DNA from: Pseudomonadota bacterium
Lineage (GTDB): Bacteria > Pseudomonadota > Gammaproteobacteria > Burkholderiales > Burkholderiaceae_C
Reading direction: 5' to 3'
DNA: 36,673 nt
NCBI GenBank assembly: GCA_018240985.1
Contig: JAFEER010000016.1
Location: forward strand, 1-36,673
Under the pieces are notes generated by a model that was not told the DNA's origin, searched no databases, and worked only from the letters and a program-made list of their open reading frames with translations. The translations under genes were made by a program, and so were the position numbers. Of this stretch, positions 7,966 to 36,673 are shown one piece after another; within the stretch, counting starts at the first letter, position 1; every line of letters starts with the position of its first letter.

Positions 7966-8020
7966 GGCTTCCTTCCTCCTCGACATGTAGATACGGCGGA
8001 TTATTGCGAAATTCCAGCGC

Positions 8021-20707: not shown

Positions 20708-20739
20708 AAATGCTTGATTGGCAAGCTGTCTCGTTGAGA

Positions 20740-20835
20740 TGGGGGCTGGAGCGCCGGCATCTTGCCGGCATCGACGCGCGAGCGTCGCTGGCCCCCACCC
20801 CGGCCCTCCCCCAGAGGGGGAGGGAGTAAGACAGG
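20740..20835. repeat. Copy of the GCCGGCATCTTGCCGGC hairpin repeat between phoB and phoR
   Basis: GGAGCGCCGGCATCTTGCCGGC is followed by TCGACGCGCGAGCGTCG and a CCCCCACCCCGGCCCTCCCC tail ending GAGGGAGTAAG. The same module, in one or the other orientation, is at 23822, 24100 and 36500. It lies within the operon but outside genes. Confidence 0.75.
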
Positions 20836-20861
20836 CCATCCGAGATCCGTTGCCAGTTAAT

Positions 20862-20912
20862 TAAAAATGATAGCTTCCAGCGCCCTTATTTATTGGGCTA
20901 ACGCCATTTTTC
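20862..20912 (+). repeat. Dispersed repeat copy just upstream of phoR
   Basis: AAAAATGATAGCTTCCAGCGCCC...GGGCTAACGCCATTTTT is a compact member of the family at 6104, with complementary GGCG/CGCC and AAAAATG/CATTTTT ends. It occupies the phoR leader, ending five bases before the ATG, so phoR lacks a normal ribosome binding site. Confidence 0.65.
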
Positions 20913-20916
20913 CATC

Positions 20917-22702: not shown

Positions 22703-22781
22703 CCAGTGCCAAGGCTACTGTGCAGCAGGGTTTGGCGCGCAAGGCAGGCATGGGGGATTGCCTTTCACCCTCATTTTCATC

Positions 22782-22870
22782 ATGGCTTGGCGCATAGCGA
22801 TATTGCTCATCGTCCAGCTGCTCAGCGCTGCCATCGGTATGTGGCTGGGTGGCAGCTGGGGCTGGCCGCC
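22782..22870 (+). pseudogene. Decayed duplicate of the phoR 5' end
   Basis: The first 84 or so bases match the start of phoR (20917 onward) with about a dozen mismatches. They translate as MAWRIAILLIVQLLSAAIGMWLGGSWG against MLWRITILLIFQLLGAAIGMWLGGTWG in PhoR. One base is then missing (a run of G), and similarity is lost soon after. It is 498 bases downstream of the intact phoR. It is a remnant of a duplication or of recombination with a related locus, not a functional gene. Confidence 0.75.
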
Positions 22871-22943
22871 ATCGAGGCGCCAGCCGCAGCCCATGCTGGC
22901 GGCCTGGGCAAGGCGGGCAACGATGAGCATCCCCGCCATCACC

Positions 22944-23372
22944 TCACAACACCAGCAAATGCTCCGCCTTTGCGCCTGGCACGGCTGCCAGATTCACCCG
23001 GGCATCAAAACTGACAAACCGGCAGCCGTGCCGCAACGCCAGCCCCAGCAAATACGCATCGGTCACCTGCCGGTGCCCCAGCAGCTGCGGCCAATGCAGG
23101 CTGCCTGCATCCAGCAGGCTGTAGTCATCCGCAATGAATTGGTGCGCCGGTGCGGCCGCCGCCTGCGCCAAGCGCTGCGCCACCGCTGCCAGTGGCAGCG
23201 CCTGCGGGTAAGCGGGCTGCGCCATGATGCGCAGGCAGCCGTTTTGCGTAAGCGGGCACGACGCCCAACCGTGATGCAACTCTTGCACCAGCCATTGGCT
23301 GGCGCGCTGGTGGTGCACATGTGCCGCGTCCAGCAAGGCGATGAGCACGTTTACATCGAGCAAGGCACGCAC
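22944..23372 (-). CDS. vapC: VapC-type PIN-domain toxin
   Basis: This 142-residue PIN ribonuclease has acidic residues D6 (ALLDVNVLIALLD), D105 (HRQVTDAYLLGLA) and D123 (FVSFDAR). The second acidic position reads TQNG at 42-45, with Gln instead of the usual Glu, a variant I believe is common in this subfamily. It cleaves RNA when freed from its antitoxin. It starts three bases after the stop of vapB, so the two are one operon. Its 3' end lies about 70 bases from the phoR remnant. Confidence 0.88.
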   Translation of the reverse strand: MRALLDVNVLIALLDAAHVHHQRASQWLVQELHHGWASCPLTQNGCLRIMAQPAYPQALPLAAVAQRLAQAAAAPAHQFIADDYSLLDAGSLHWPQLLGHRQVTDAYLLGLALRHGCRFVSFDARVNLAAVPGAKAEHLLVL

Positions 23373-23375
23373 GGC

Positions 23376-23624
23376 TTACACCCCTTCGCTGTCGCGCAAT
23401 TTGTCGATCAGCTCGTTGCTGACCACCACGCCACGCGGGGCGAAGGGCACAAAACCCGTAGCTGAAGCTGCGCCCCCTGATGCAGCAGCGCCCTGCACTA
23501 CCTGCCCCGTCAGTGCCTGGCGCAACAAGCGCGAAACGACCTTGCCCAGGCTCACGTTTTCCTGCCGCGCCAGCTCTTTGACTGCCATCAAAGCGTCAGG
23601 CTCCAGATCAATAGTGGTTCTCAT
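23376..23624 (-). CDS. vapB: VapB-type ribbon-helix-helix antitoxin
   Basis: The protein has 82 residues. The N-terminal ribbon-helix-helix is MRTTIDLEPDALMAVKELARQENVSLGKVVSRLLRQAL (1-38), and the flexible C-terminal half ends with FAPRGVVVSNELIDKLRDSEGV, which would wrap the VapC PIN domain. It represses its own operon by binding the promoter just upstream (about 23625-23700); the AT-rich ATTGATGTGATGCGCTGATT there contains TGATG repeats that may be operator sites. Confidence 0.85.
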   Translation of the reverse strand: MRTTIDLEPDALMAVKELARQENVSLGKVVSRLLRQALTGQVVQGAAASGGAASATGFVPFAPRGVVVSNELIDKLRDSEGV

Positions 23625-23821: not shown

Positions 23822-23895
23822 AGGGGAGCGCCGGCATCTTGCCGGCACCGACGCGCTAGCGTCGCTTGCCCCTACCCCTGCCATCCCCCAGAGGC
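23822..23895. repeat. Copy of the GCCGGCATCTTGCCGGC hairpin repeat
   Basis: GGAGCGCCGGCATCTTGCCGGC is followed by CGACGCGCTAGCGTCG and a CCCCTACCCCTGCCATCCCC tail. It has the same orientation as the copy at 20740. Confidence 0.75.
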
Positions 23896-24099: not shown

Positions 24100-24270
24100 G
24101 GGCAGGGGTGGGGGCCGGCGACGCTTGCGCGTCGATGCCGGCAAGATGCCGGCGCTCCAGCCCCCATCCCAGCCTCGGTGCTGGCGGCGAGACGCCGCCG
24201 CTCTTCAGGCAGTCCACTTCCGCACTGGCGGAACTGGAGCCGCAGCCTTCAGCCCCAAAGGGGGAAGGAG
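24100..24270. repeat. Multi-hairpin dispersed repeat, full copy
   Basis: Four hairpins follow one another: CGACGCTTGCGCGTCG, GCCGGCAAGATGCCGGC, GGCGGCGAGACGCCGCC and ACTTCCGCACTGGCGGAACT. The block from about 24117 to 24252 is nearly identical to 36540-36673 at the other end of the window. It lies just downstream of the thiD stop codon. Confidence 0.85.
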
Positions 24271-24288: not shown

Positions 24289-25143
24289 TCAAGAATAATC
24301 GTTCAAAACCACCTGTGCCACGGGCGCGTAGCCATGGTTGAGCGGCCCATGGCCCCGGCCGGTGCGGACGTCGGCGCCGGCGGCAATGGCGCCCAGGATG
24401 TAGCGGCGCGCAGCCTGTACGGCCGCTGCCAGATCCAGGCCCAGCGCCAGCTGCGCAGCAATCGCCGACGACAGCGTGCAGCCCGTGCCATGGCCGTTGT
24501 GCGTGGCGATGCGCTGCGACGCCAGGCGGTGCTGCGCGCCGCCGGGCAGCGCCAGCAAGTCCACCACACGCTCGCCCGGCAGATGCCCGCCCTTTAGCAG
24601 CACGGCGCGCGCGCCCAGGGCCAGTAGTTCCTGCGCTGCCGCTGCCAACTCGTCCTCGTGTGTGACCTGGCGGCCCAGCAGCCAGCCGGCCTCGTCCAGA
24701 TTGGGCGTGACCAGCGCGGCCAGCGGAAACAGTTCGCGCACCAGGGTGCCCACGGTGTCCTCGGCGATCAGGCGGTCGCCGCTGGTGGCGACCATCACCG
24801 GATCCAGCACCACGTTGGGCAGGTTGTGGCGGCGGATGGCATCGGCCACCACCTGCACCACTTCGGGCGCGTGCAGCATGCCGATCTTCACGGCGTCCAC
24901 GCCGATGTCCTCGACCACGGCGTCGATCTGCGCGCGCAGGATGTCGGGCGGCACGCCATGGATGGCGTGCACGCCGCAGGTGTTCTGCGCCGTGATGGCG
25001 GTGATCGCCGTCATGCCGTAGCAGCCCAGGGCGCTGAAGGTCTTGAGGTCGGCCTGTATGCCGGCGCCGCCGCCGCTGTCTGAGCCGGCGATGGACAGTA
25101 CGCGGGCGTAGCGCCGCTGTGGCGTTGGAACGTCTTGAGTCAT
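24289..25143 (-). CDS. thiD: Hydroxymethylpyrimidine/phosphomethylpyrimidine kinase
   Basis: This 284-residue ribokinase-fold enzyme has VLSIAGSDSGGGAGIQADLKTFSALGCYGMTAITAITAQNT (about 14-55), VVLDPVMVATSGDRLI (about 120) and the anion-hole/catalytic motif HNGHGTGCTLSSAIAAQLALG (about 215-235). It phosphorylates HMP and HMP-P in thiamine synthesis. The ATG at 25143 precedes MTQDVPTPQRRYARVL; the eight upstream in-frame codons are not family-like. It lies 9.8 kb from thiO-thiS and on the opposite strand. No TPP riboswitch was seen before it. Confidence 0.94.
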   Translation of the reverse strand: MTQDVPTPQRRYARVLSIAGSDSGGGAGIQADLKTFSALGCYGMTAITAITAQNTCGVHAIHGVPPDILRAQIDAVVEDIGVDAVKIGMLHAPEVVQVVADAIRRHNLPNVVLDPVMVATSGDRLIAEDTVGTLVRELFPLAALVTPNLDEAGWLLGRQVTHEDELAAAAQELLALGARAVLLKGGHLPGERVVDLLALPGGAQHRLASQRIATHNGHGTGCTLSSAIAAQLALGLDLAAAVQAARRYILGAIAAGADVRTGRGHGPLNHGYAPVAQVVLNDYS

Positions 25144-25179
25144 GAGGAAAATTATGCGGCACGGCAAAGCCGATGGCGC

Positions 25180-25992
25180 TCATTTCTCGATCATGGCCAC
25201 ATGCGCCTGGATCTTGCCGTCCACGGCATGCGCACCAAACCTGCGCGCGAGCGCGTCGGCGGCGGCATCGGTCGCCTGCGCGAGCCGCGACCCGCCGCGC
25301 GCCTCGATTTCGTTGCGCAGCGGTGTCCCCTGGCAGTAGGCGATGGCGGGCTCGCGCGGCGATGGCGCGCGGCTGCGCGCCGCGACCGTGGCCCATTGCG
25401 GCGGCTGCGTGAAGCCGCCCGCGGCAAGATCCCGTTCGATCGCAGACCGGTCGTGGTAACCGTGCGGCGTGCGCGCCAGGAAGCGCGGCGGATCGGCTGG
25501 AAATACAGCCTCCAACGCGGCCGTGACGGTGTCCGCGAATTCATTCTCGGCGATGGCGTCCCAGACGTTGAAGAGGAAGGCGCCGCCGGGTGCGAGCACG
25601 CGGCGCGCCTCGGCGAATGCCTTGGCCTTGTCCGGGAAGAACATCGCGCCGAACTGGCACACGACGAGATCGAATTCGCCATCGGCAAAGGGCAGCGCCT
25701 GGGCATCGGCCTGCTGCCAACGCACGGGGCGCGCGGTACCGGCGGCCACCGCTTCATCCAGCATGGCCTGGTTCAGATCCGTCGCGACGATGGAAAGCCG
25801 GGCATGAGGCAGACTTGCCAATGCGCGCGTCACCACGCCGGTGCCCGCTGCCACTTCCAATACCCGCGGCCGATCCATCGCAGCGACCCGGCCCTTCAGG
25901 TCGGCCGCATAGGGCGCGAAGATCAGCGGCACCAGACTGGTCTGGTAGAGCCTGGCGATCGAACCCGAAAAAACCTTGTCGATGTGGGACAT
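25180..25992 (-). CDS. Class I SAM-dependent methyltransferase
   Basis: The protein has 270 residues. The SAM-binding motif is VLEVAAGTGVVTRALA (about 44-59), then IVATDLNQAMLDEA, then ADAQALPFADGEFDLVVCQFGAMFF and the post-motif VLAPGGAFLFNVWDA. This is the UbiE/Methyltransf_11 pattern, so the substrate is probably a small molecule, but it is not identifiable. It is on the same strand as thiD (36 bases before it) and as the cassette upstream, so it may be transcribed with either. The start has AGGGAGATACGC upstream. Confidence 0.85.
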   Translation of the reverse strand: MSHIDKVFSGSIARLYQTSLVPLIFAPYAADLKGRVAAMDRPRVLEVAAGTGVVTRALASLPHARLSIVATDLNQAMLDEAVAAGTARPVRWQQADAQALPFADGEFDLVVCQFGAMFFPDKAKAFAEARRVLAPGGAFLFNVWDAIAENEFADTVTAALEAVFPADPPRFLARTPHGYHDRSAIERDLAAGGFTQPPQWATVAARSRAPSPREPAIAYCQGTPLRNEIEARGGSRLAQATDAAADALARRFGAHAVDGKIQAHVAMIEK

Positions 25993-26143
25993 GCGTATCT
26001 CCCTGTCCCATCACCACGGTGCGCCCCGGCTCGATTGCGCCAACGCCGTGGCGCATACGGCACGATGGAAGGCTGGACAAGGCCACGGGATCGCCCGCGC
26101 GGTGCGGGCCTGCCGTGGCCTGTCTCGCCTCCATGGCGCCTGA

Positions 26144-27040
26144 TCACCGCACCCTCATGCCCGTGGGCGAAAAGCGGTAGCCGCAGAAGATGGTGTAAGG
26201 GCCTCGATTGCAGTTGGCGGGCGTGCGGGTCGTGCCGTTGATCAGCACGCCGGCGTTATCCACGTTGCGCGCCGCGGTTCCGCCGGGCTTGTGTCCCCAA
26301 AATCCCGCGGAGTGGCGGCGGTACCAGTGGTAATCGACCCCCGGCCATATGACAAGCGCCACATTCTTGTTGGAGCCGTTGCACACCGCCGTGCAGCCGT
26401 CCCAGTTGGCCGCATTGGCGACCTGCGGACACGCCATGACGGCATTGGGGTGACCCGAAATCCGCCCAGGCTGGGCGAACGTGTCCGAGCGGAAGTTCAT
26501 TGCATAGTTGTAGCAATTGTTTTTCGGCTGAACGGCGGGAACGTTCCAAAACCCTGGGTTGTAGGCGGTGTTGGCGATGATGCAGGCCAGCGCCGCAGCG
26601 CCAAGGTCTCTGTCCGATTCCTCTATCGCCTCCGCGGCCGGTTCCTCCTCGCGCAGCCCCTGCAGCTTGGACTCGACTTCCTCCTGCACCGCGCCAGCCA
26701 GAGCGTCGCCCACGGCATGGGCGCCGGTGGCCAGCAGCCATTTGACGGTGTCGTCGGTCTCGTCAAAGGTCAGCGCGCGATAGCCCGCCTGCAGCGCTTG
26801 AGCGCTCGGGTTCGCCATACCTCCGATGCGGAACGCCATGGGCACTACGGCGCCAGCGTCGGCATCCGTGGTCTGCGACACCACCAGCCCGCGAAAGCCC
26901 AGCGCATAGTCGTCTTCAACAACGTCGGCCGGAGTGAGCGCCCGTTGGGCGACGCGATCCACGAGTTCCTTCGCCTTCTTGTCCGAGAGCATCCATGAAG
27001 GGTTGCGACGGCCCGAAAAGATTTCCAAGGTCACAAGCAT
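26144..27040 (-). CDS. IFSGRxNPxW-domain protein with papain-like Cys/His signature
   Basis: The protein has 298 residues and no signal peptide. The N-terminal part has IFSGRRNPSWMLSD (7-20) and ALGFRGLVVSQ (46-56), shared with the next upstream gene. A charged helical linker (about 95-145) is followed by a Cys-rich C-terminal domain with NNCYNYAMNF (C176), TFAQPGRISG, DYHWYRRHSAGFWGHKPGG (H238) and NVDNAG (D261/N262). The order Cys-His-Asp/Asn fits a papain/NlpC-like amidase or protease fold; that is inference from motifs. Eight or more cysteines are present. I do not recognise a named family. It is the last gene of the candidate cassette; AAGGAGAACTGAA before the ATG is a good ribosome binding site. 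Confidence 0.7.
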   Translation of the reverse strand: MLVTLEIFSGRRNPSWMLSDKKAKELVDRVAQRALTPADVVEDDYALGFRGLVVSQTTDADAGAVVPMAFRIGGMANPSAQALQAGYRALTFDETDDTVKWLLATGAHAVGDALAGAVQEEVESKLQGLREEEPAAEAIEESDRDLGAAALACIIANTAYNPGFWNVPAVQPKNNCYNYAMNFRSDTFAQPGRISGHPNAVMACPQVANAANWDGCTAVCNGSNKNVALVIWPGVDYHWYRRHSAGFWGHKPGGTAARNVDNAGVLINGTTRTPANCNRGPYTIFCGYRFSPTGMRVR

Positions 27041-27116
27041 TTCAGTTCTCCTTCAGAAAACATCGAAGCACGGCGCCCCGACGATTCGATTCAAGGTGGC
27101 TACTGCCCCGGCAGCG

Positions 27117-27443
27117 TCAACGCGGCGGGATGCCGTCCAGGATCGCCGCCCAGCCATTGGCGCGCGCGCTGCGTTGCAGCCAGGCCTCGGCACCGCGTAT
27201 ATCGGCGAACGGCTGCGAGTCGATCTCCACCGTTCCAGCGAAAACCCGAACCGGCGCTGCCGCCACGCCTGCGGAACCGCAGCGGTAGACAAGAAAGCCG
27301 CGGTAGCCAAGTGGTTCGGGCTGGCCTTGCGTGGCAACCGGCAGGTCGGACAGCAGAGCCAGCAATTCGATCGTTTGCGCATCGTCGAGCCGCCAGGTCG
27401 GGTTCGGCCGACCACTGAAGATGTCAAGTTCTATCTGAACCAT
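27117..27443 (-). CDS. Small IFSGRxNPxW-domain protein
   Basis: The protein has 108 residues: MVQIELDIFSGRPNPTWRLDD (1-21), LGYRGFLVYR (45-54) and a C-terminal part ending AWLQRSARANGWAAILDGIPPR. The first 55 residues have the same two motifs, at the same spacing, as the neighbouring 298-residue protein, so the two share a domain. No family name is known to me. It is soluble and has no signal if the ATG at 27443 is used. A longer in-frame start at 27566 would add a hydrophobic, signal-like segment (LASLVFALLPLSTHGAG) and must be kept in mind: with it the protein could be exported. Confidence 0.7.
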   Translation of the reverse strand: MVQIELDIFSGRPNPTWRLDDAQTIELLALLSDLPVATQGQPEPLGYRGFLVYRCGSAGVAAAPVRVFAGTVEIDSQPFADIRGAEAWLQRSARANGWAAILDGIPPR

Positions 27444-27582
27444 TGGAACCCCTGGGTTGTGGCCCGCACCATGCGTGGACAAGGGCAGGAGGGCGAACAC
27501 CAAGCTTGCCAAGCCATTGGCCCAAAGCTGCCCGCGGCCGCCGGCGATCCGCCTGGAAGATGGCATATGTATGGTTCAGGCA

Positions 27583-28797
27583 CTACGGTGGCGATCCCAG
27601 TGCGTTTGGCAGGTAGCGCCGCTTGCGCCAATCGAACTCGAAGTAGTCGATCATCTGAACTGGCTTGCTGAAGGGCTCTTGCGGCCTGGGCACGGTGAAA
27701 TAGCGCCCGATGATCAACTTGTCGGTCAACTCGACGCGAAGAAAACCATGGTGGTCGTCGCAATAGCGCTCCAGCGTGACAGTCTCGCCAGACTTGTCCG
27801 TGAAGGCCACGGGCGTGATCATCGCCTGCCCATCGACCTTGATGATCGAATGCAGGTGGTGGTAGCCACCGGCGCCCGTCACGAGATAGGGCAGTTGTTC
27901 GCCATTGGCCAGGCTTTTCGTCAGTCGCTGGTAGTTGTGCACATGGCCGGCAAGCACCATGTCGGGCTGGCGCTTGGCGCTCAGGGTCGCCTGCTCCAGC
28001 ATGTGCTTCATCGGCGTGCTGCCCGAATGGTGGTCATCGGCGGAATAAATGGGGTGGTGCAAAGACACGAAAAGCGGCCGGTCGGTCGGCAGCGTCCGCA
28101 GTTGCTCTACCAGCCATTCGGTTTGCGGCGCCTTGATTTCACCGCCTTCGGGAACATTGCTGTAGAGGCCGACGAACGACGCCAGCGGCGTCAGCAAAGT
28201 CCAGTAGACATTCGGCTGAACCATCGCCGTGCGGTGCGAGTCGCCGGATTCGGGCATTTTCACCGGATGAGCCGCGCAGAAGTTTCTGACAAAGCCGTCC
28301 AGTGAATCGTCGCCTGGCAGATTCTCGCCATCGTGATTACCCGGCACGGCAAAGATCGCAGCAGGATAAAACTCGTAAGGGCGATAGAACTGGTTGTAAT
28401 ACCGTTTGATCTCGCCGTTGAAGTACACGCAATCGCCGCAGATGTACAAAAAAGCCGGCTTGTCGGCAAGCTTGGTTTTGCCATGAAAGTCGGCTTCCAT
28501 GCCTTTTGCGACCAGGGTTTGCGGCACGTCGTAGTTGATGCCGCCCATGTCGCCGTTCAGGTGGAAGACCAGCTTCTTGGCCGCGACGACCGCCTTGTAT
28601 TGCGCCGCCGGCACAATGGTCTTCAGGTCAAGTTGGAAAGGGGGTTTGCCGGTCGGCGGCGGCAAGTCGCGGAAATGCGTGTCCCGCTTCGGCGTCGTAT
28701 GCAGGCTGAAGGTTCCCGACGCGCTGGGGCGCGTGCGCCCGAAAACGTGATCGAATGACCGAGGCTCCGCGGGAGTGACTGATGACTTCTTGGCCAT
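27583..28797 (-). CDS. Purple-acid-phosphatase-like calcineurin-type phosphoesterase
   Basis: This 404-residue protein has the five metallophosphoesterase blocks in the purple-acid-phosphatase style: GDMGG (82-86), GDCVY (121-125), GNHD (153-156), SLHHPIYS (about 245-252) and GHVHNYQR (284-291). The Tyr of GDxxY is the residue that gives purple acid phosphatases their Fe(III) charge-transfer band. No signal peptide or lipobox is present, unusual for this group, most of which are secreted. The N-terminal 75 residues are unique. It belongs to the minus-strand cassette; substrate unknown (phosphomonoester, diester or nucleotide). Confidence 0.88.
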   Translation of the reverse strand: MAKKSSVTPAEPRSFDHVFGRTRPSASGTFSLHTTPKRDTHFRDLPPPTGKPPFQLDLKTIVPAAQYKAVVAAKKLVFHLNGDMGGINYDVPQTLVAKGMEADFHGKTKLADKPAFLYICGDCVYFNGEIKRYYNQFYRPYEFYPAAIFAVPGNHDGENLPGDDSLDGFVRNFCAAHPVKMPESGDSHRTAMVQPNVYWTLLTPLASFVGLYSNVPEGGEIKAPQTEWLVEQLRTLPTDRPLFVSLHHPIYSADDHHSGSTPMKHMLEQATLSAKRQPDMVLAGHVHNYQRLTKSLANGEQLPYLVTGAGGYHHLHSIIKVDGQAMITPVAFTDKSGETVTLERYCDDHHGFLRVELTDKLIIGRYFTVPRPQEPFSKPVQMIDYFEFDWRKRRYLPNALGSPP

Positions 28798-28871
28798 GCT
28801 GAGCTCCTAGTCCACGAACTTCGCTCTGCGGCAGCAGCCTGCAGAACTCGCCGCGCAACTGTGGTGGAAAT

Positions 28872-28900
28872 CCTAGCGCCGGCAGGTTCAAGGCGCTAGG
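28872..28900. repeat. 9-bp inverted repeat between the phosphoesterase and small-protein genes
   Basis: CCTAGCGCC and GGCGCTAGG form a perfect stem around an 11-base loop. No T-run follows on the transcribed strand, so it is not a classical terminator; it could process mRNA or bind a regulator. Confidence 0.5.
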
Positions 28901-28978
28901 ACAATCCCGCCATTCACTAGGACGATCTTGCGTCCACGGCAGCCCCTGCGGCCCTGGCGTCGCCAGGCGGGAGCAGAT

Positions 28979-29272
28979 TTAAAGCGCCCGAATGGGCGCG
29001 CCGCCGACAATGCGTGTCGGCAAGCCTTCGACGGTGGCTGGCAAATGCGCCCTGCCCCCCTTGGGCGTGTAGTGCAACACCACCACGCGTTGTCCGCTGG
29101 CGTCGCGTTCGATCCAGACGCCATCGACACCGGCAATGCCCATCAGCCTGTCAACGACCGCCTGGGGCAGCCTGTCGGCCGCAGCACCCGCCCCCCCGAC
29201 GGCCTGCCGCGTGACTGGCAGGGGGTCGGAAGCCAGGAAGTCTGTGGAACCGGGGGGCAGGCTGGTCGCCAT
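28979..29272 (-). CDS. Stand-alone homologue of the trypsin-like peptidase N-terminal domain
   Basis: The protein has 97 residues. The pattern LMGIAGVDGVWIERDASGQRVVVLHY...AHLPATVEGLPTRIVGGAPIRA follows the plan (I-x-GV-x-GV-x-I / VY / LP-x-x-x-x-G-x-P-x-R-x-V / G-x-I-x-A) found in the domain just before the catalytic part of bacterial NAL1-like peptidases. That domain is also present in the upstream gene. It may be a detached propeptide, inhibitor or targeting partner of the peptidase; this is inference. The ATG at 29272 has a GGAG at good spacing. The longer frame to 29323 starts nine bases past the peptidase stop and is less likely. Confidence 0.65.
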   Translation of the reverse strand: MATSLPPGSTDFLASDPLPVTRQAVGGAGAAADRLPQAVVDRLMGIAGVDGVWIERDASGQRVVVLHYTPKGGRAHLPATVEGLPTRIVGGAPIRAL

Positions 29273-29332
29273 GGCAACTCCAATCAGGCTGGCAAAGGCC
29301 GGTGAAAACGCGTGGAAAACCATTGTGAACCA

Positions 29333-30499
29333 TCAGGTCACCAGCTGCACGTCCAATGCCGCGAGCACGTTGACGATGGGGTTGCCGAAGGTCGTTCCGC
29401 CGCCGCCGGCGAACAGCAGCGCCACCGGCGCACGGCGCGCATCCCAGGTCCAGATCAATGAGCCCGAATCACCGCCGGCACTGAAAGTGCCGCCGGGCGT
29501 GCTGACCGCGATCTGGTTGACGAAGCGCGCCACGCGGCCGCCGCCGTAGTTGACGTTGATGGTGGCACCCACCGCCGTGACGCCGCCGCGCGTGAGCTGC
29601 GTCGTGCGTCCCGACTTGCCCACCTGCATGCCCAGGAACGCGGCCACCGGCGTGGAGCCGACGCGGAAGTAGTTGGTCACGCCACCCGAGATGTACATCA
29701 GCTCCTTGCGCACCAGGTTGGGCCAAGCCCAGCCGGTGGCGCAATCGACGACGTTCGCGGCACCTGCGGCGAAGTTGATGGGCACGAAGCGCTCCAGTAT
29801 CGCGATCCGGTCGGCCGGATTGACCCCGCCGTCGAACGGGCCGGGCTGCAGGATGTTGGCGCCCAGCGGCCCGGCGTTGGTATTGGCCAGCACATGGTTG
29901 TTGCTCAGCACCATCAGCCGGTTGTTACGCGGCGCGCTGCGCCCCCGCACCAGGCAGCCTAGCGTGCCCGCGGTGATGGCGAAGTGCCCGCAGCTGATGC
30001 CGCCCGGCGCCGGCCGCAGGCGCATGCGGTGCGGCTGCGCATCAATCACGCCGGTGTGCACGGCCCTGATCGGGAAGTCGCTGTCGGCAAGCGCCGATAC
30101 GCCGGCCACCGAGGCCAGGCGGGCGCGCAACTCGCCGCCGGATTCGGGCTCCAGCGTGTACACCTCCAGCACCGGATCGCCGGGCGAGCCGGCGGCCGAC
30201 AGGCCGTCGCCCAGGCCGACGCCCACGCCGGTGATATTGGCATCCTGCGCCGCCTGGGACTGGGCGCCTTCCGCCTCGTTGCTCAGGCTGTCGAGCAGCT
30301 TTTCCAGCTCCGACTTGACGGCCATGAGCTGGCTGTCAACGCCGGACAGGAACGCCTCTGTTTCAGCTTCGACTGCTTCCTTCTCCATCGCGCCTTCCGT
30401 ATTCGGCTCTTCGTAGCCGGAAAGATCGCTGGACGAGCTCTGCTGCCCGTCGTCCGTGCCGGGGGCCTGGAACTCGGTGTGGGTTTTCCTGGTTGCCAT
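29333..30499 (-). CDS. NAL1-like trypsin-fold serine peptidase
   Basis: The protein has 388 residues. A hydrophilic leader (1-40) and a coiled-coil-like acidic helix (41-85) precede a small alpha/beta domain (about 88-155) ending FPIRAVHTGVIDA. The catalytic domain then reads GISCGHFAITAGTLGCLVRG, VLSNNHVLA (His 202), NVVDCATGWAW (probable Asp 252) and GGDSGSLIW (Ser 345). This triad order and the SNNHVLA motif are those of the NAL1-type branch of trypsin-like peptidases. No signal peptide is seen, so it probably acts in the cytosol or is exported by another route. AAGGAGATCATC before the ATG is an excellent ribosome binding site. Confidence 0.82.
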   Translation of the reverse strand: MATRKTHTEFQAPGTDDGQQSSSSDLSGYEEPNTEGAMEKEAVEAETEAFLSGVDSQLMAVKSELEKLLDSLSNEAEGAQSQAAQDANITGVGVGLGDGLSAAGSPGDPVLEVYTLEPESGGELRARLASVAGVSALADSDFPIRAVHTGVIDAQPHRMRLRPAPGGISCGHFAITAGTLGCLVRGRSAPRNNRLMVLSNNHVLANTNAGPLGANILQPGPFDGGVNPADRIAILERFVPINFAAGAANVVDCATGWAWPNLVRKELMYISGGVTNYFRVGSTPVAAFLGMQVGKSGRTTQLTRGGVTAVGATINVNYGGGRVARFVNQIAVSTPGGTFSAGGDSGSLIWTWDARRAPVALLFAGGGGTTFGNPIVNVLAALDVQLVT

Positions 30500-30720
30500 G
30501 ATGATCTCCTTGGCAGGGCGTCAAGCCCCGAACTGAACAAACCAATATCTTCATGAAGCGCTGTTGCAGCGACTTCGCGCCAGGCTGGCTTTGCAACCAC
30601 CTGCCGGCCCCCACCCGAGAAACGCCATCCATTCCCGGGCTTCACCACGTTCAATGGGTCTGCATATGCATTGATTGCCTCCTTCACCTTGGGTTGCTCG
30701 GATCACAAAGGGCAGGCGGG

Positions 30721-30972
30721 CTATGCGCTGCGCCCGAAGATGCCCTGCCTGAGCAGGCCGGCTACGTCGCGGGCGTCCACCCACTGGACAGGGCGTGCCG
30801 CGGAGAATGGGTAGGCCATCCCCGTGATGGCGCCATGCACGACGATCGGCGCCGCGCCCAGATAACGCATGCGCGTGGGCGCACGCGCCATGGCACTGCC
30901 GCCCGGCCGCACCGCGCCAGCGCCTGCCTGGCTAGCTTTCAGTGCCATCCGCCCCTGACCGCAACACGACAT
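30721..30972 (-). CDS. Small MSCCGQ-type protein
   Basis: The protein has 83 residues. It starts MSCCGQGRMAL and carries MRYLGAAPIVVHGAITGMAYPFSAA...VDARDVAGLLRQGIFGRSA. I recall this layout (YxG-x-x-x-I-x-V-x-G-x-x-TG-x-x-Y-x-F ... VD-x-RD-x-x-x-LL) from small conserved hypothetical proteins next to DUF1360 genes and, in some genomes, in phage-like contexts; no function is established. The start overlaps the end of the DUF1360 gene by 41 bases in another frame, implying translational coupling. Confidence 0.65.
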   Translation of the reverse strand: MSCCGQGRMALKASQAGAGAVRPGGSAMARAPTRMRYLGAAPIVVHGAITGMAYPFSAARPVQWVDARDVAGLLRQGIFGRSA

Positions 30973-31306
30973 GATCGTTGTCCTCCGGAAATTCCAGCGC
31001 ATGCGCCGGCAGCTCGCGGCGCGCGGCGCCAATGCGCTCCAGTAGGCAGGCCGCGCCCGATAGCGCCAGCCAGGCCAGCACCCCCTCCACCAGCGACTGC
31101 GCCACGGCGATGGCAAAGGGCACGGCAATCCAGAGCGACAGGCACTGAAAGCAGTCCATCCAGCCGCCCAGCACGCTTGACCCCAGCTTCAGCCGCAGCC
31201 TCAGCACCAGCTCGGCCGGGCCGTCTTCCTCCGCGATCAAATGCGTCACCCGCCAAGTTCCAAGCGCCGCCAGCGCAAACGCAAACCATGGGTTGATGCT
31301 GTTCAC
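30932..31306 (-). CDS. DUF1360 family membrane protein
   Basis: This 124-residue protein has the DUF1360 signature: LAALGTWRVTHLIAEEDGPAELVLRLR (12-38), DCFQCLSLWIAVPFA (51-65) and LAWLALSGAACLLERIG (78-93). About three membrane helices are likely. The DCFQC cysteines may bind metal or form a disulfide. The GTG at 31306 is the only plausible start. Family function is unknown; the gene lies between the large Cys-rich protein and the MSCCGQ-type protein. Confidence 0.75.
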   Translation of the reverse strand: MNSINPWFAFALAALGTWRVTHLIAEEDGPAELVLRLRLKLGSSVLGGWMDCFQCLSLWIAVPFAIAVAQSLVEGVLAWLALSGAACLLERIGAARRELPAHALEFPEDNDHVVLRSGADGTES

Positions 31307-31360
31307 GGCCGTTACCCCGCGCGTTCACCGAGTGATTCAATGCTCGTCCTTTCATCTCGG

Positions 31361-33697
31361 TCATCTCGGCTCGCCTCCATCGGTTTCGGCTGCCCCACGC
31401 CGTGGCGGGCACACGCCGGGGCACAGATCCGGGCGCAGCACGGTGAATGACAGTTCGAACTGGTTGTGGTGCGTCACGCTCGGGTCTGAGCAGCCGCTGG
31501 TGGTGCGCTTCCAGGCCCACAGCCGCAGCAGGTAGGCGCAGCACTCGGGAAAGTCGGAGCCGCGCAGCACGACCTTGAAGTCGCCGCCATGCCAATGCGC
31601 GCGCGGCGCACCCTGGCCCAGGGCCTGGCTGTAGCTCGGGCCGAATTCCGCGGTCGGGTCGGCCGACAGCGCACCCACGCCGCCGGTCGCGTCCACGTAG
31701 AGCGGTGCGGCGATGTAGAAGGCCTGGTTGGCACCGTATTCGGCACGCAGCCAGTAGCCGCCGAGGTGGCCGTCCGGCACCGTCGCAGGGCAGGTGACGC
31801 TGAAGTGCAGGGTCAGCGTGTCGCTTGGCTCCAGCCGCGCGATGTCGCAGGCGGACACGCATTCCTGGCCCGGCTGGCCCTCGTTCTTCCAGATCTCGCG
31901 GATATAGCAGTCCGGCTCGACGGTGCAGGCGTGGATGATGCCGCCGCAGGCATGCGGGATCTTGCACGGCGCCGGCAGCGACGGCCCGGGGTGCGTGGCC
32001 GCCTGGTTGTCAATGCGCAGGTACACGCGCTCGGCCGATTCCTTGCCGCAGGTCGGCAGGATGCGCTCGCTGGCCGCAATCAGGTTGTCCGCGGCATCGG
32101 CGGTGAAGCCGTCGAACTGCAGCTGGTACAGCGCGTCGGGCGTGAGCCCCGGTTGCGTCGTGTCGAAATAGCACAGCGTGGCATAGTCGTTCCAGATCAC
32201 CTGTCCACCGAAACGCGGAATGCCCGGGTTCAGCGCCTCGTAGTGGCGCCGCGTGATGATTACCAGATGGCCGTTCTTGGGCGCAGGCGTGAAGGCCACC
32301 GGCACGAACGTGGAGCCATCCCAGTAGCTGCGCGTGAAACCGCCGAACGCGGGGCTGGGCAGGTCGGCCCACGGCGCGCCGTTTTTCGACACCTGCAGCT
32401 TGAAGTAGTCCACGTCCCATCCCACGGCGCCCTGGATCTGCAGTGATCCGTAGAACGGGTTGTCCTTCCAGGGGTCGGCCGCCGAGACGCCGGTGCGGGC
32501 GTAGCCGCGCAGGTCGGGTGGGCCCGCATTCGCACTGATCTGGTCGACCGGCGTGCAGCCGACCCAGGTGAGCTTCAGGCATTCCGGGCATTCCGGGTCG
32601 CGGCAGGTGGGAATGCAGCACGCGAGCTCGTTGGCGATCAGCGTGACGTTCAGCGTGGTCGGTATGTCCCAGCGCGTCTGTGCGTTTGACTCCTGGTAGA
32701 TCACGTTGACGCGGTCGCCGCAGCGCTGCGTCGCGCGGAACACGATGTCCGGCGCGCAATCGCTTCTATCCCACCACGGCCACACACGCTGTGCGGCCAG
32801 TTCGGCCGAGGCCGGCAGCCTGGCGCGCAGGGCCTGCGCCGACACCATGGCGGCGGGCTGCTGCAACGCGGGCAGCGACAGCGCCCCCTGTGTCGCGGCG
32901 GCCAGCACCGGCCCGGTCAGGCTGGCGGCACCGCCCAGCCATTGCTGGAACAGCGTCGGGTCGGGATCGGGCCCCGGGGGCAGCGGCGGCAACGGCGGCT
33001 CCACGGTCGCGAGCAGCTGCTGGATGCGCGCCAGGATGTCCGGGTCAATGACCGCGTTCTGGCGCAGCCACGGCAACCAGCGCAGGCAGCACCAGCGAAA
33101 GCTCATGTGGAAGTTGCCGTTGATGTCGGTGGTCGCGCTGGTGATTTCGTCGCGCCAGTACCACCACCAGAAGCGGTCTACGTCCCAGGCCTCGACGACG
33201 GCGCCCGGCACCGGCTCGTCGCAGAAGGTCCAGCGATGCAGCCGGGGGTCGTAGTGCCAGTGCCGGCAGACGATGCGGCCGTTGATGGTGTAGGTGCGGC
33301 AGCAGACCAGCCAGCAGTGGTAGATCGCAGCCTCGACCACGATGGGGCCAATCTTGAGCTGCGCGCCCTGTGCCGCGGCGGTCTTTGCGGTGCCTCGTTC
33401 CATGGCGGGCGCCAGATCCACCTCGTAGCGGGCGGTATCGATGGCCAGCAACTCGCGGTCGGAGACGTTGGGCCCGGCCAGCAGAACCACCGGGCAAGGC
33501 AGGCGCGCGCCCGGCAGCATCGGCGGATCGAACGCCAGCTCGAACGGCAGGCGCCGCTCCTTCGCGTCACGCGGCTTGATGACGGCCGAACCCAGGACTG
33601 CCCCTTCGCGCACGACAGCCACACGCAGTTCCAGGCCAGGTTGGAATTGTTCGTCCGCAACTCGGGACAGATCCAACTCACCGGTGATCTTGGTCAT
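31361..33697 (-). CDS. Large Cys/Trp-rich protein with carboxypeptidase-regulatory-like domain
   Basis: The protein has 778 residues, no signal peptide and no membrane segment. Region 1-100 is beta-rich (GLELRVAVVREGAVLGSAVI). Region 120-215 has YHCWLVCCRTYTINGRIVCRHW, then VPGAVVEAWDVDRFWWWYWRDEI and SATTDINGNFHMSFRWCCLRWLPW, the pattern of a transthyretin/CarboxypepD_reg-like fold. A Pro-rich linker lies near 235-250. The C-terminal two thirds hold further Cys clusters (ELACCIPTCRDPECPECLKL, FPECCAYLL) and beta-sandwich-like segments. There are more than 30 cysteines, which argues for metal sites or an oxidising destination. Function unknown. It is the largest cassette gene. AAGGAG is eight bases before the ATG; the frame upstream to 34228 is only a shadow. 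Confidence 0.75.
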   Translation of the reverse strand: MTKITGELDLSRVADEQFQPGLELRVAVVREGAVLGSAVIKPRDAKERRLPFELAFDPPMLPGARLPCPVVLLAGPNVSDRELLAIDTARYEVDLAPAMERGTAKTAAAQGAQLKIGPIVVEAAIYHCWLVCCRTYTINGRIVCRHWHYDPRLHRWTFCDEPVPGAVVEAWDVDRFWWWYWRDEITSATTDINGNFHMSFRWCCLRWLPWLRQNAVIDPDILARIQQLLATVEPPLPPLPPGPDPDPTLFQQWLGGAASLTGPVLAAATQGALSLPALQQPAAMVSAQALRARLPASAELAAQRVWPWWDRSDCAPDIVFRATQRCGDRVNVIYQESNAQTRWDIPTTLNVTLIANELACCIPTCRDPECPECLKLTWVGCTPVDQISANAGPPDLRGYARTGVSAADPWKDNPFYGSLQIQGAVGWDVDYFKLQVSKNGAPWADLPSPAFGGFTRSYWDGSTFVPVAFTPAPKNGHLVIITRRHYEALNPGIPRFGGQVIWNDYATLCYFDTTQPGLTPDALYQLQFDGFTADAADNLIAASERILPTCGKESAERVYLRIDNQAATHPGPSLPAPCKIPHACGGIIHACTVEPDCYIREIWKNEGQPGQECVSACDIARLEPSDTLTLHFSVTCPATVPDGHLGGYWLRAEYGANQAFYIAAPLYVDATGGVGALSADPTAEFGPSYSQALGQGAPRAHWHGGDFKVVLRGSDFPECCAYLLRLWAWKRTTSGCSDPSVTHHNQFELSFTVLRPDLCPGVCPPRRGAAETDGGEPR

Positions 33698-33837
33698 GGC
33701 TTGCTCCTTGAACGGTGGCGCGTTGAACGCGCGCTTGACTGAAGCCCCAAGCATGCGGCAGCGGCGCGATGGCCGGTTAGTACCGACCTGCGCCTTTATC
33801 GGACGATTCTGCGGTGGGCCTGGGGGTTCGGCCGGGG

Positions 33838-34617
33838 CTACGGCGATCGCATGCGCTGGTATTGCGTCGCGGGGACGCCTACGAAACGGCGAAACACGCG
33901 CCCGAAATACGAGAGGTCGTTGAAACCGACCGCATAGGCCACCTGCGAGACCGATGACCCCGGTTCGGCCAGAAAATCGCGCGCCCTGGCGACCCGGTAC
34001 TGCAGCAAAAAGCTGCAGAACGACAGGCCCTGCTCGCGCCGAAAGGCGCGGCTGAATTCCGATTCGGACAGATGACAAAGTTCGGCAGCGACCTTGATAG
34101 GGCAAGGCTGCGCGTAGTGCTCGCTGATCCAGGCCACGGCGGCTGAGGTTCGTGGGGAGGCCGTCAGTGGTTTGCGCAAATGTCCTGCCGGCGCGCGCAA
34201 ATCCGGCGGCAACTCGGTGTCCAACCATTCATGGCGCGCCATCGGGCCAGTGATGGCGGACGTCAGAATCCCGATCAGGCGCGCCAGCGTTTCGGCGGTG
34301 ACCGGCATGACCCGGTAGTCCCAGACCCGGCAGCGAAAGGCCCACACTGCCAGCGCCTCGGTGTGGTATTCGGTGAACATCAGCACCGGTAGCGCCGGGA
34401 ACTCACGCCGCACCATGGGCACGGCCGTCAGGCGGGAGCGGTCGGGGTAGTCGTACTCGATCCCAACGAAATGCGGGCGGTGGGCGGCGATGGCGGACGA
34501 GACCTCGGCGATCTGCGTGACGCGGGCGATGTCGCAATGCGGCCGGGCATCCGGCCACAGGCCGCGTTGCTGCGGCATGCACCGCAGATCAATCCAGACG
34601 GCGCGCCGCTCGTTCAT
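33838..34617 (-). CDS. AraC-type regulator with degenerate receiver domain
   Basis: The protein has 259 residues. The N-terminal part (about 5-125) follows a CheY-like fold: RAVWIDL, then HFVGIEYDYPD, then LPVLMFTEYHTEALAVWAFRCRVWDYRVMPVT. The conserved Lys before the final Pro is replaced (VMPVT), and the phosphoacceptor strand reads GIEYDYP, so normal phosphorylation is doubtful. The C-terminal HTH_18 domain (about 155-259) has AELCHLSESEFSRAFRREQGLSFCSFLLQYRVARARDFL and VSQVAYAVGFNDLSYFGRVFRRFVGVPATQYQ. It probably controls the downstream minus-strand cassette. Direct TACGTATnTA repeats lie about 165-195 bases upstream. Confidence 0.85.
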   Translation of the reverse strand: MNERRAVWIDLRCMPQQRGLWPDARPHCDIARVTQIAEVSSAIAAHRPHFVGIEYDYPDRSRLTAVPMVRREFPALPVLMFTEYHTEALAVWAFRCRVWDYRVMPVTAETLARLIGILTSAITGPMARHEWLDTELPPDLRAPAGHLRKPLTASPRTSAAVAWISEHYAQPCPIKVAAELCHLSESEFSRAFRREQGLSFCSFLLQYRVARARDFLAEPGSSVSQVAYAVGFNDLSYFGRVFRRFVGVPATQYQRMRSP

Positions 34618-34957
34618 GCCGGTTCCCCTCGCTGCCGTCTCGGGCTTCTCACTGTGGAGGCTAGACGCTGGAAGAGTCCTGTGCTGCCGAAGCGATTGTT
34701 GTTCAAGACTGGCTCCTCAACAGCCAAAGCGGTGGCTGGGCGGTCGATGTTCGCATCCTAGAAAACATCAGTTTGAAAGTACGTATTTACTTAGAAAAAT
34801 TACGTATGTAACTGCATTCGCGCCAATAGTCCCTACAGCAAATCTGGGGGTGGCGTATGAGCAGAGTTCAATTCGCAAGCCGTTGCCAACAGCGTGGAAA
34901 CCTGCGCCATGTCAACGCCATGGGCTTGGGGCCTGTGCTGTAATGCCGGCCACTGAC
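34618..34957. other. Divergent control region between the regulator and the thiamine genes
   Basis: No gene was seen. The central part (about 34755-34815) is strikingly AT-rich compared with the surroundings and holds the direct repeats listed separately. Promoters for the AraC-type gene (leftward) and for thiO (rightward) must lie here. An isolated open frame of 96 residues (34471-34761) is mainly antisense to the regulator. Confidence 0.55.
34780..34812. promoter_or_regulatory. Direct TACGTATnTA repeats, likely regulator binding site
   Basis: TACGTATTTACT (34780-34791) and TACGTATGTAAC (34801-34812) are direct repeats spaced 21 bases start to start, i.e. two helical turns. Two in-phase direct sites are typical of AraC-family operators. 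The stretch is AT-rich. Assigning them to the adjacent AraC-type regulator is inference. Confidence 0.45.
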
Positions 34958-35044
34958 GAAACAGGGGTGTCCCGGCCGCACAGGCTGGCGACTGAGAAAC
35001 ACCCTCCGCACCCGATCCAGGTCATGCTGGCGTGGGGAGTTTTC
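34958..35044 (+). promoter_or_regulatory. TPP (THI-box) riboswitch
   Basis: The thi-box elements are in order: ACAGGGGTGTCCCG, a variable stem, CTGAGAAACACCC, ACCCGATCCAGGTCATGC, then TGGCGTGGGGA. The closing stem pairs GAAAC (34958-34962) with GTTTTC (35039-35044). It binds thiamine pyrophosphate and shuts off thiO-thiS downstream. It begins about 160 bases before the thiO ATG. Confidence 0.93.
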
Positions 35045-35119
35045 AGCCATCAGGGTCACGCCGCCCTTGGCACCTGTTTTGTCCCCCCACGGTTTTGATT
35101 GGATTGCGGACAAGACACC

Positions 35120-36226
35120 ATGCAGCCACTGCTTTCTCCCTCTTCCTCGGTCACCATCCTGGGCGCAGGCCTGCTCGGCAGCCTGCTGGCCACCAGCCTT
35201 GCGCGCCAGGGCCATCGCGTGCAGGTTTACGAAGCCGGCGGCCCCGCCGGTGTGGGCGCTGCCGCCTATGTGGCCGCGGCCATGGTGGCGCCCCTGGCCG
35301 AGTCGGTGGTGGCCGAGGCCTGCATCGTGCGCATGGGCCAGCATGCGCTGACGCGCTGGCCCGAACTGATCGCGCCGCTGCCGGCGCCCGTGTACTGGCA
35401 GCAGAACGGCACCCTCATCGTCTGGCACCGCCAGGACGCGGGCGACGCTGCCCGCCTGCGCGGCTTGTTCGAGCACCGGCAGAGCGAGGTGGCGGGCCTG
35501 CCCGCCATGCAGCCGCTTGACGCCGCAGGCGTGGCCGCCGCAGACCCGGGCCTGGCCGGACGGTTTGCCCAGGGCCTGCTGCTGCCGGGCGAGGGGCAGA
35601 TCGACAACCGCCAGCTGTTTGCCGCCCTGGCGCAGGACATGCAGCAGCTGGGCGTTGAAACCCACTACCACAGCCCGCGCGAGGTGGGCGACTTCCGCCC
35701 CGGCGAGGCCGGCCAGCCGGACTGGCTCATCGACTGCCGCGGCCTGGGCGCACACCCGCAATGGCAGCAGCTGCGCGGCATACGCGGCGAGGTGGTGCGC
35801 ATCCACGCGCCCGAGGTCACGCTGGCGCGGCCCACGCGGCTGATCCACCCGCGCTACTCGATCTACGTGGCGCCCAAGGAAAACCATGTGTTCGTGATCG
35901 GCGCCACCGAGATCGAGTCCGACGACCGCTCCGGCATGAGCGTGCGCTCGGCGCTGGAGCTGCTCTCGGCCGCCTACACCGTCCACAGCGGCTTTGCCGA
36001 GGGCCGCATCCTGGAGCTGAACACCCAGTGCCGCCCCACCCTGCCCAATAATCTGCCCGCCATCCGCCTGCAGCATCCGCGCGTGCTGGAGATCAACGGC
36101 ATGTACCGCCACGGCTTCATGCAGGCCCCGGCCCTGCACGACGTGGCGCTGGAGCTCTTGAACCAGGGACAATCGCCGTTGGCAACGCAATTCGACCTGG
36201 CCCTGCAGGGCCCCGCCTTCGCATGA
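35120..36226 (+). CDS. thiO: Glycine oxidase ThiO, FAD-dependent
   Basis: This 368-residue DAO-family flavoenzyme has the FAD-binding GxGxxG reading VTILGAGLLGSLLATSLARQGHRVQVYEAG near the N-terminus. IRGEVVRIHAPEV and the C-terminal VIGATEIESDDRSGMSVRSALELLSAAYTVHSGFAEGRILE are typical of ThiO. RHGFMQAP is the end of the FAD site. It oxidises glycine to iminoglycine (dehydroglycine) for the thiazole ring of thiamine. A TPP riboswitch precedes it and thiS overlaps its stop by four bases. The ATG at 35120 is preferred to a TTG seven codons upstream. Confidence 0.92.
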   Translation: MQPLLSPSSSVTILGAGLLGSLLATSLARQGHRVQVYEAGGPAGVGAAAYVAAAMVAPLAESVVAEACIVRMGQHALTRWPELIAPLPAPVYWQQNGTLIVWHRQDAGDAARLRGLFEHRQSEVAGLPAMQPLDAAGVAAADPGLAGRFAQGLLLPGEGQIDNRQLFAALAQDMQQLGVETHYHSPREVGDFRPGEAGQPDWLIDCRGLGAHPQWQQLRGIRGEVVRIHAPEVTLARPTRLIHPRYSIYVAPKENHVFVIGATEIESDDRSGMSVRSALELLSAAYTVHSGFAEGRILELNTQCRPTLPNNLPAIRLQHPRVLEINGMYRHGFMQAPALHDVALELLNQGQSPLATQFDLALQGPAFA

Positions 36227-36499: not shown

Positions 36500-36673
36500 T
36501 ACTCCCTCCCCCTCTGGGGGAGGGCCGGGGTGGGGGCTCGCGACGCTCGCGCGTCGATGCCGGCAAGATGCCGGCGCTCCAGCCCCCATCCCAACCTCGG
36601 TGCTGGCGGCGAGACGCCGCCGCTCTTCAGGCAGTCCAGTTCCGCACTGGCGGAACTGGAGCCGCAGCCTTCA
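36500..36673. repeat. Multi-hairpin dispersed repeat, second full copy (cut by window end)
   Basis: The four hairpins are the same and in the same order as at 24100: CGACGCTCGCGCGTCG, GCCGGCAAGATGCCGGC, GGCGGCGAGACGCCGCC and AGTTCCGCACTGGCGGAACT. It differs from the 24100 copy by only a few bases over about 135 and has a CTCCCTCCCCCTCTGGGGGA lead. The two copies flank the thiD-to-thiS region in the same orientation. Confidence 0.85.

Follow-up and report, generated by a model that had tools for sequence, protein, structure and literature searches.

A three-gene core with changing peptidase neighbours, inserted into the thiamine locus of a Burkholderiales bacterium and recurring across bacterial phyla

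The subject of this study is a stretch of 36,673 nucleotides (contig JAFEER010000016.1 of assembly GCA_018240985.1, Burkholderiaceae_C), hereafter called the window, in which a first-pass annotation had placed nine same-strand genes at 26144-34617, between thiD and the riboswitch-preceded thiO, and had read them as one undescribed functional unit. All nine genes were confirmed on the minus strand, and the widely conserved core among them consists of three, encoding a 778-amino acid (aa) Cys/Trp-rich protein (LBP), a small membrane protein resembling DUF1360, and an 83-aa protein that begins with MSCCGQ; these are referred to as the trio. That the trio keeps its order in at least five phyla while its peptidase partners change points to a general function in bacteria. 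This function is apparently undescribed, as neither the trio nor a conserved peptidase-adjacent unit was found described in the literature searched, in agreement with the earlier claim of novelty. The reading of all nine genes as a single system is only partly supported: a conserved unit adjoining a peptidase does exist, but not all nine genes belong to it, and the genes outside the trio look like lineage-specific neighbours.

Recurrence and distribution of the trio

A search of 398 genomes of the window's phylum with an LBP profile returned, besides the window's own genome, one distant relative (G756), in which LBP precedes a DUF1360 protein of 51% identity and an overlapping MSCCGQ gene (genomes are designated by G numbers and loci by L numbers throughout). 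A scan of 84,980 species genomes with an alignment of three DUF1360 sequences, which relied on two exact peptide patterns and finds this DUF1360 subfamily only, yielded 31 loci (L032 being that of G005). Together with the window and G756 they make 33 loci, 30 of them new, which according to their record titles belong to Pseudomonadota, Acidobacteriota, Chlorobiota, Bacteroidota, Gemmatimonadota and Actinomycetota. In 32 of the 33 loci the gene after DUF1360 encodes a CCG-type small protein; these include 29 of the 30 new loci, which had been found with DUF1360 alone, and the same holds for each of four additional Acidobacteriota loci (L072-L075). An LBP-type gene, recognized by homology or by position and size, lies directly upstream of DUF1360 in 28 of the 33 loci (25 of the 30 new ones); the LBPs of L046 and L048 are short, L034 retains only a remnant, and in L042 the LBP lies downstream. 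Apparent fusions in L056 and L062, in which six-frame open reading frame lists joined DUF1360 to frames upstream of it, were false. The succession of DUF1360 and a CCG-starting small protein can serve as bait in further searches.

The trio is rare and patchy in its distribution. The 778-aa protein was present in two of 59 relatives (the window's genome and G005) and in two of 369 genomes of the class (the window's genome and the distant G674), while DUF1360 was found in six of the 247 genomes of an Acidobacteriota search, one of these being the centre of the search and one a weak match. In a tree of DUF1360 and CCGQ proteins that covers 26 of the 33 loci and leaves 11 of its 23 inner branches unresolved, G756, a member of the window's phylum, groups with Chlorobium (support 100/98), and the other Pseudomonadota fall into several separate clades, a mixing of phyla that fits horizontal spread. 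Among plasmids, no match was obtained for the 778-aa protein, for an Acidobacteria DUF1360 or for a type-B LBP. Cultured carriers, named after their record titles, are Roseateles saccharophilus DSM 654, Pelomonas aquatica KCTC 42961 and Paracidobacterium acidisoli 4G-K13.

Properties of the core proteins

The LBP of the window contains 3.9% Cys and 3.5% Trp, has no hydrophobic N-terminus and is 86% identical to its counterpart in G005. Profile comparison joins LBP types A and B (98%), B and D (95%), B and G (96%), and F and G (93%); the LBPs of types A and C are Cys-rich, and a Cys/Trp-rich composition is found in both. AlphaFold2 models the LBP of the window as predominantly strand, with a mean predicted local distance difference test score (pLDDT) of 52. 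The best Protein Data Bank (PDB) matches of this model in Foldseek were multi-domain beta-sandwich proteins (complement, integrin and the biofilm protein RbmA); with template modelling (TM) scores of about 0.1, root-mean-square deviations of 17-40 Å and a model of low confidence, they were not used as evidence of kinship. At L054 (2194-8493) a protein of 2100 aa that matches annexin (E 4e-19) is encoded two genes upstream of the DUF1360-CCG pair, and no LBP was found there.

The DUF1360 label given to the second core protein in the first-pass annotation stands on a PHROG 781 match (E 9e-5), while the Pfam score of 18.2 bits remains under the cut-off of 21. Its relatives in L054 and L056 match PHROG 781 at 8e-12 and 7e-7. 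The protein resembles Pfam DUF1360 (PF07098) in being a small membrane protein that keeps a DCxxC motif and in its weak matches to Pfam and PHROG 781; it differs in that the window copy stays below the family cut-off, and Pfam itself states no function for the family. Across 27 sequences the residues W18, R19, H22, E27, D28, G29, P30, R38, G42, D51, C52, C55, S57 and S83 are invariant and include the motifs EDGP and DCxxC. Partner genes of DUF1360 were not found described in the literature searched. As a separate observation, DUF1360 relatives have terminase and portal genes as neighbours in a Microbacterium phage (L063, 7983-8267) and in two viral contigs (L064, 7977-8267; L065, approximately 8001-8174); in L064 the gene after the DUF1360 relative holds an internal CCGQ, perhaps by chance.

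In the third core protein, a CCG near the start is found in 31 of 32 small proteins, and the next residue is Q or K in 27 of these 31. The genes of 21 of the 31 CCG proteins overlap DUF1360, and the remaining 10 start 2-79 nucleotides (nt) after it. The MSCCGQ protein of the window consists of a flexible N-terminus carrying CCGQ, followed by a compact C-terminal domain (pLDDT about 92). No Pfam family reached its cut-off for the 778-aa, 83-aa, small and IFSG proteins of the window, and comparison of the window proteins with NCBIfam, PADLOC and PHROGs gave nothing specific beyond the PHROG 781 match of DUF1360 and a match of the peptidase to a phage protease family; two of the three trio proteins have no credible match in the Pfam and NCBIfam scans made.

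Insertion into the thiamine locus

In four genus-mates of the window's bacterium (G001, G003, G004 and G006, all four that were fetched, G002 not being among them) thiD and thiO lie next to each other in divergent orientation, separated by about 200 bp, and the riboswitch was confirmed at this empty site in G003 and G004. In the window the distance between the two genes is about 9.7 kb. Since thiD adjoins thiO in all four genus-mates, the intervening block of the window is an insertion, as had been proposed earlier, and it splits a single divergent locus into its thiD and thiO arms. Inspection by eye revealed no target-site duplication, and the ten proteins of the block include no mobile-element family according to Pfam and PHROGs, in line with the initial impression that such genes were missing.

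Within the seven genomes of the genus (G000-G006), the peptidase and the 778-aa protein each occur in two. The second carrier, G005, contains AraC, the 778-aa protein, DUF1360, MSCCGQ, the peptidase and small between the same thiD and thiO, with 70-86% identity to the window. The phosphoesterase, both IFSG proteins and the methyltransferase had no match within the compared 40 kb of the G005 contig; there, small and thiD are separated by a racemase-like gene, a permease-like gene (both named by look) and a partial copy of thiD. This second, partial copy of the thiD start lies at the downstream end of the G005 module (L003, 9216-9400). Because the G005 locus has the six module genes without the cargo of the window, the six-gene module is probably older than that cargo. 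Furthermore, thiD lies directly upstream of AraC in two more metagenome-assembled genomes (L037 and L038), and the thiD neighbourhood has therefore been used repeatedly or been kept in rearranged form.

The six module genes are under purifying selection. The ratios of nonsynonymous to synonymous substitution rates (dN/dS) between the window and G005 were 0.22 for AraC, 0.18 for LBP, 0.33 for DUF1360 and 0.30 for CCGQ (the latter two values being approximate because the two genes overlap), 0.18 for the peptidase and 0.16 for small, compared with 0.21 for thiD. With values of 0.16-0.33, chance reading frames are therefore unlikely for these six genes; the phosphoesterase, the IFSG genes and the methyltransferase have no counterpart in the compared part of the G005 contig, so that this analysis covers the six only.

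Core and cargo

The features of the window are listed in Table 1. The reading of all nine genes as one unit was rejected on the evidence of the G005 locus, from which four of the block's ten genes are missing, and since the phosphoesterase, the two IFSG proteins and the methyltransferase are the genes missing there, they look like cargo of the window's lineage. Comparison across loci gave a corresponding picture of the co-occurrence suggested at the outset: DUF1360, the CCG protein and LBP recur together, whereas none of the other trio loci examined yielded relatives of the IFSG proteins. The AraC regulator belongs to the module within the clade of the window, with copies 63-78% identical upstream of the trio in G005, L033, L034, L036, L037 and L038.

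Table 1. Genes and other features of the window, with position, strand and supporting detail.
Feature	Position	Strand	Detail
AraC-type regulator	33838-34617	-	HTH_18, E 1e-21, above Pfam cut-off
LBP, 778-aa Cys/Trp-rich protein (core gene 1)	31361-33697	-
DUF1360-like small membrane protein (core gene 2)	30932-31306	-
MSCCGQ (CCGQ) protein, 83 aa (core gene 3)	30721-30972	-	41-nt overlap with DUF1360
NAL1-like trypsin-fold serine peptidase (predicted), leaderless	29333-30499	-	Pfam Nal1_C above cut-off
small, protein adjoining the peptidase	28979-29323	-
Calcineurin-like phosphoesterase	27583-28797	-	Metallophos, E 9e-11; 42.9 bits vs cut-off 21.5
IFSG protein 2	27117-27566	-	Hydrophobic, signal-peptide-like N-terminus; IFSGRPNPTW motif
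IFSG protein 1	26144-27040	-	IFSG domain and putative Cys/His hydrolase domain
Class I methyltransferase, last gene before thiD	25180-25992	-	Methyltransf_11, E 7e-23, above Pfam cut-off
thiD	24289-25167	-	Follows the methyltransferase in the same-strand run
Thiamine pyrophosphate (TPP) riboswitch	34953-35055	+	In front of thiO
thiO	35099-36226	+
Inserted block (approximate limits)	25155-34900		Between thiD and the TPP-riboswitch/thiO arm

In L034 a relative of the methyltransferase (70% identity over 188 aa) is encoded some 7 kb downstream of the trio. Profile searches found no relatives of the window phosphoesterase near other trios; calcineurin-like genes of other kinds account, with that of the window included, for three of 125 proteins encoded near a trio, and the cargo status of the phosphoesterase is less clear than that of the IFSG proteins. 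By Pfam, a calcineurin-like phosphoesterase gene also lies on the other strand near the trio of L043 (6859-7668; Metallophos 54 bits), and a weak likeness to the window phosphoesterase was seen in L058 (10956-11849). The IFSG proteins were rejected as partners of the trio after a motif scan of the loci found the motif only in the window and in two plasmid relatives; by the same scan a tblastn match of IFSG protein 2 in L038 was spurious. The plasmid relatives of IFSG protein 1, which extend over 97% of its length, come from Rhizobium (32% identity) and Streptomyces (29%); at L076 (5992-6822) and L077 (5995-6975) they are annotated as hypothetical and have no trio gene among their annotated neighbours. 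Since a Cys (in NNCYNYA, or NNCYCYA in Streptomyces) and a His (in DYHWYR, or DFHFYR) are conserved in these relatives, IFSG protein 1 is probably a Cys/His hydrolase, carried as cargo.

Peptidases and other neighbours of the trio

The family of the partner peptidase changes between lineages. A NAL1-like peptidase lies beside the trio in the window and in G005, an A4/G1 glutamic peptidase in L033 (= G798), L034, L035 and L075, a papain-like C1 peptidase in L052, an S8 subtilase in L048, a CHAT protein in L031, L037, L040, L041, L047, L048 (twice), L050, L058 and L075, and an M16 peptidase, encoded on the opposite strand, in L056, L057, L061 and L062; a gene of L046 was rejected as CHAT because its sequence ends before any CHAT domain. 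Altogether a peptidase was found beside the trio in 19 of 37 loci, or 21 when a borderline M48 gene (L072) and a trypsin-like gene on the opposite strand (L074) are included, a count that should not be taken as a statistic, since many contigs are short and many of the loci are kindred.

Association at the genome level was analyzed for CHAT and A4 only, after the pattern had been seen. The CHAT analysis comprised 19 trio genomes, namely 14 of the 31 scan genomes together with G000, G005, G756, G834 and G982 (G837 and G1022 were left out), of which 10 contained CHAT and nine, including the window's own genome G000, had no CHAT match in the genome-wide search. CHAT lay within 10 kb of the trio, in all cases within about 6 kb, in seven of the 10 CHAT genomes compared with 0.18 expected (P ~7e-12), or in five of eight groups (P ~3e-8) when the sigma-factor genomes G801, G804 and G982 are counted once, in a post hoc test on hand-picked genomes of which some were already known to have CHAT neighbours. 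The A4 peptidase was present as one copy each in four of 21 genomes and was beside the trio in two of these four.

Other genes accompany the trio in particular lineages. In L033, L034, L035, L037 and L038 the trio is followed by a member of a family of about 440 aa (C18), with 82-100% identity to the L033 query; L036 contains a fragment of it, and L042 a distant copy (34% over 89 aa). The 248-aa protein encoded after C18 in L038 (12622-13365) carries a HELLE motif and is perhaps a metallopeptidase; it has no Pfam match. In L040-type loci the CHAT gene is preceded by a sigma-70-like gene (under the Pfam cut-off), a putative anti-sigma gene (zf-HC2, 23.5 vs 22.2 bits) and a gene for a 280-aa protein. 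Additional genes are a lipase gene in L048 and an Arr-like ADP-ribosyltransferase with TPR in L031.

The window peptidase had been labelled NAL1-like at the outset, and a Nal1_C score of 29.4 bits against a cut-off of 26.1 (E 5.7e-7) bears this out, as does a sequence match to the rice NAL1 structure 7y77 (E 0.0013). A candidate triad of His (in NNHVLA), Asp (in VD) and Ser (in GDSG) is conserved in four aligned bacterial sequences; judged from this alignment rather than from a residue-by-residue comparison with solved NAL1, the protein is a predicted peptidase. It thus resembles rice NAL1 (NARROW LEAF 1) in family, by Pfam and PDB sequence match, and in its candidate catalytic residues, but differs in being bacterial and in lying beside small and the trio. 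The small protein is 79% identical in G005. Its earlier description as a homologue of the N-domain of the peptidase is weakly backed by a profile alignment (hhalign, probability 20%, E 0.001), whereas BLASTP gave no meaningful match. Elsewhere, a NAL1-like peptidase on a Rhizobium plasmid (L078, 3318-6867) adjoins a radical SAM gene and a HEXXH putative peptide-modification gene, and in Rubrobacter (L079, 5716-7027) one is followed by a 77-aa gene resembling small of the window.

Interpretation

We tentatively favour an explanation in which the trio is a horizontally spread module that acts at the membrane and whose LBP is processed by the partner peptidase. The DUF1360 protein, with its DCxxC, and the CCG protein would hold, translocate or mature LBP at the cell membrane via their paired cysteines, the partner peptidase would cleave LBP or be gated by it, and the regulator would switch the module on; a regulator and one or more lineage-dependent peptidases, here the NAL1-like one with small, often lie beside the trio. 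Signal-peptide-like N-termini are found on several partner peptidases (CHAT of L037 and L058, S8 of L048, M16 of L056 and A4 of L075), and such an exported appearance fits a location in the envelope. If the coupling to peptidases is true, the trio would be a new case of envelope or stress biology under protease control. The wider proposal, that a new class of peptidase-coupled membrane systems is built around the trio, exchanged between phyla and possibly derived from proteins of phage packaging modules, in which the conserved trio would combine with a lineage-recruited serine, glutamic, cysteine, CHAT or metallopeptidase, seems to us rather doubtful.

Several observations weigh against this explanation. 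A hydrophobic N-terminus was found in none of 27 LBP-type proteins (26 from trio loci and that of L027; the LBP start of L035 is lost at the contig end), and hydropathy likewise showed no signal-peptide-like start in any LBP, MSCCGQ protein or window-type peptidase tested; without a signal peptide, the route of LBP to the envelope is unexplained. The leaderless partner peptidases of the window, L034, L052 and L031 do not favour an envelope location either, and two fold searches yielded no functional lead. Moreover, judged by profile comparison LBP is not one proven family: type C, from Roseateles and others, is not joined to type A (1.4%) and is weakly linked to D (54%), type E is unlinked, and the name therefore rests in these two types on position, size and composition. 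The LBP of L045 was placed in type C by position and size alone, with no tblastn tie to others, type D LBPs are not Cys-rich (1.2-2.1% Cys), and no LBP was found in L036, L054 and L060. The sole Actinomycetota locus, L042, is also the sole exception to the DUF1360-CCG pair, as the CCG-starting frame after its DUF1360 does not match the rest of the domain, and the pair therefore holds for five phyla. With regard to the peptidases, about half of the loci have none seen beside the trio, the M16 genes at L056, L057, L061 and L062 are on the opposite strand, CHAT lies elsewhere in the genome in G805, G810 and G834, and the CHAT association was established post hoc.

The leaderless state of LBP and of several peptidases would suit an intracellular system against invaders or stress, in which LBP would serve as sensor or scaffold, the peptidase as trigger, DUF1360 as the membrane-acting end, and the phosphoesterase and IFSG protein 1 as interchangeable effectors; we consider this possible but not probable. 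The patchy, horizontally moving distribution and the calcineurin-like genes near the trio at more than one locus are compatible with it. In bacterial conflict systems with rotating peptidase effectors (PMC8195603), these effectors include trypsin, caspase and calcineurin domains, and unrelated peptidases and calcineurin-like enzymes are likewise among the neighbours of the trio. Similarly, the sigma-70-like and putative anti-sigma genes before TPR-CHAT in L040-type loci, downstream of the trio, recall the protease-sigma switch of the CRISPR-associated Csx29/Csx30/CASP-sigma system, in which a TPR-CHAT protease occurs with a sigma factor and the inhibitor of the latter (PMC10028731). However, no CRISPR gene was noticed at the L040-type loci, where CRISPR genes were not searched for, and the window proteins contain neither a STAND or MoxR NTPase nor a death-like adaptor domain in the Pfam scan, the published adaptor models not having been compared. 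In addition, the methyltransferase alone among ten window proteins matched PADLOC-DB 2.0.0, namely methyltransferase-type models, and the exported appearance of several partner peptidases also speaks against an intracellular role. Taken by analogy, the trio module may somewhat resemble systems that use a protease to gate a response (PMC10028731, PMC8195603); we do not claim membership.

A surface or matrix operon appears unlikely. LBP would then be a secreted structural or adhesive beta-sandwich protein that is exported or cross-linked by DUF1360 and CCGQ, with peptidases merely sharing the niche, and the strand-rich LBP model, its beta-sandwich Foldseek matches (at TM scores of about 0.1 on a low-confidence model) and the Cys/Trp-rich LBPs of types A and C would agree with this, but the lack of a signal peptide, by hydropathy, on all 27 LBP-type proteins does not, and the CHAT link looks too strong for a shared niche alone. 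We regard as very improbable that no functional unit exists and that small conserved genes travel together in insertion hot spots: the patchy distribution, the differing cargo of the window and G005, and the fact that L037 and L038, too, have thiD next to the module would be expected in this case, yet the DUF1360-CCG adjacency, kept across five phyla in 32 of 33 loci, and the purifying selection argue against it. Just as improbable is a domesticated piece of phage morphogenesis, with DUF1360 and the CCGQ domain derived from phage head or packaging modules. Searches of phages gave no match for MSCCGQ and nine records for DUF1360 (best E 1e-3), in a viral collection no LBP was found but two DUF1360 relatives were, both without LBP, and PHROGs identified no phage structural or integration genes among the ten window proteins scanned.

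Other features of the window

Outside the inserted block, a repeat of approximately 70-152 bp, 87-96% identical and present in both orientations, was observed at 24100-24251, 36522-36673, 20733-20883 and 23825-23894, and looks like a multi-copy intergenic element of the window genome. The start of a histidine kinase gene is partly duplicated (108 bp, 84% identical; 20909-21016 and 22774-22880), and two small minus-strand genes at 22944-23624 resemble, by look only, a PIN-domain toxin and a ribbon-helix-helix antitoxin.

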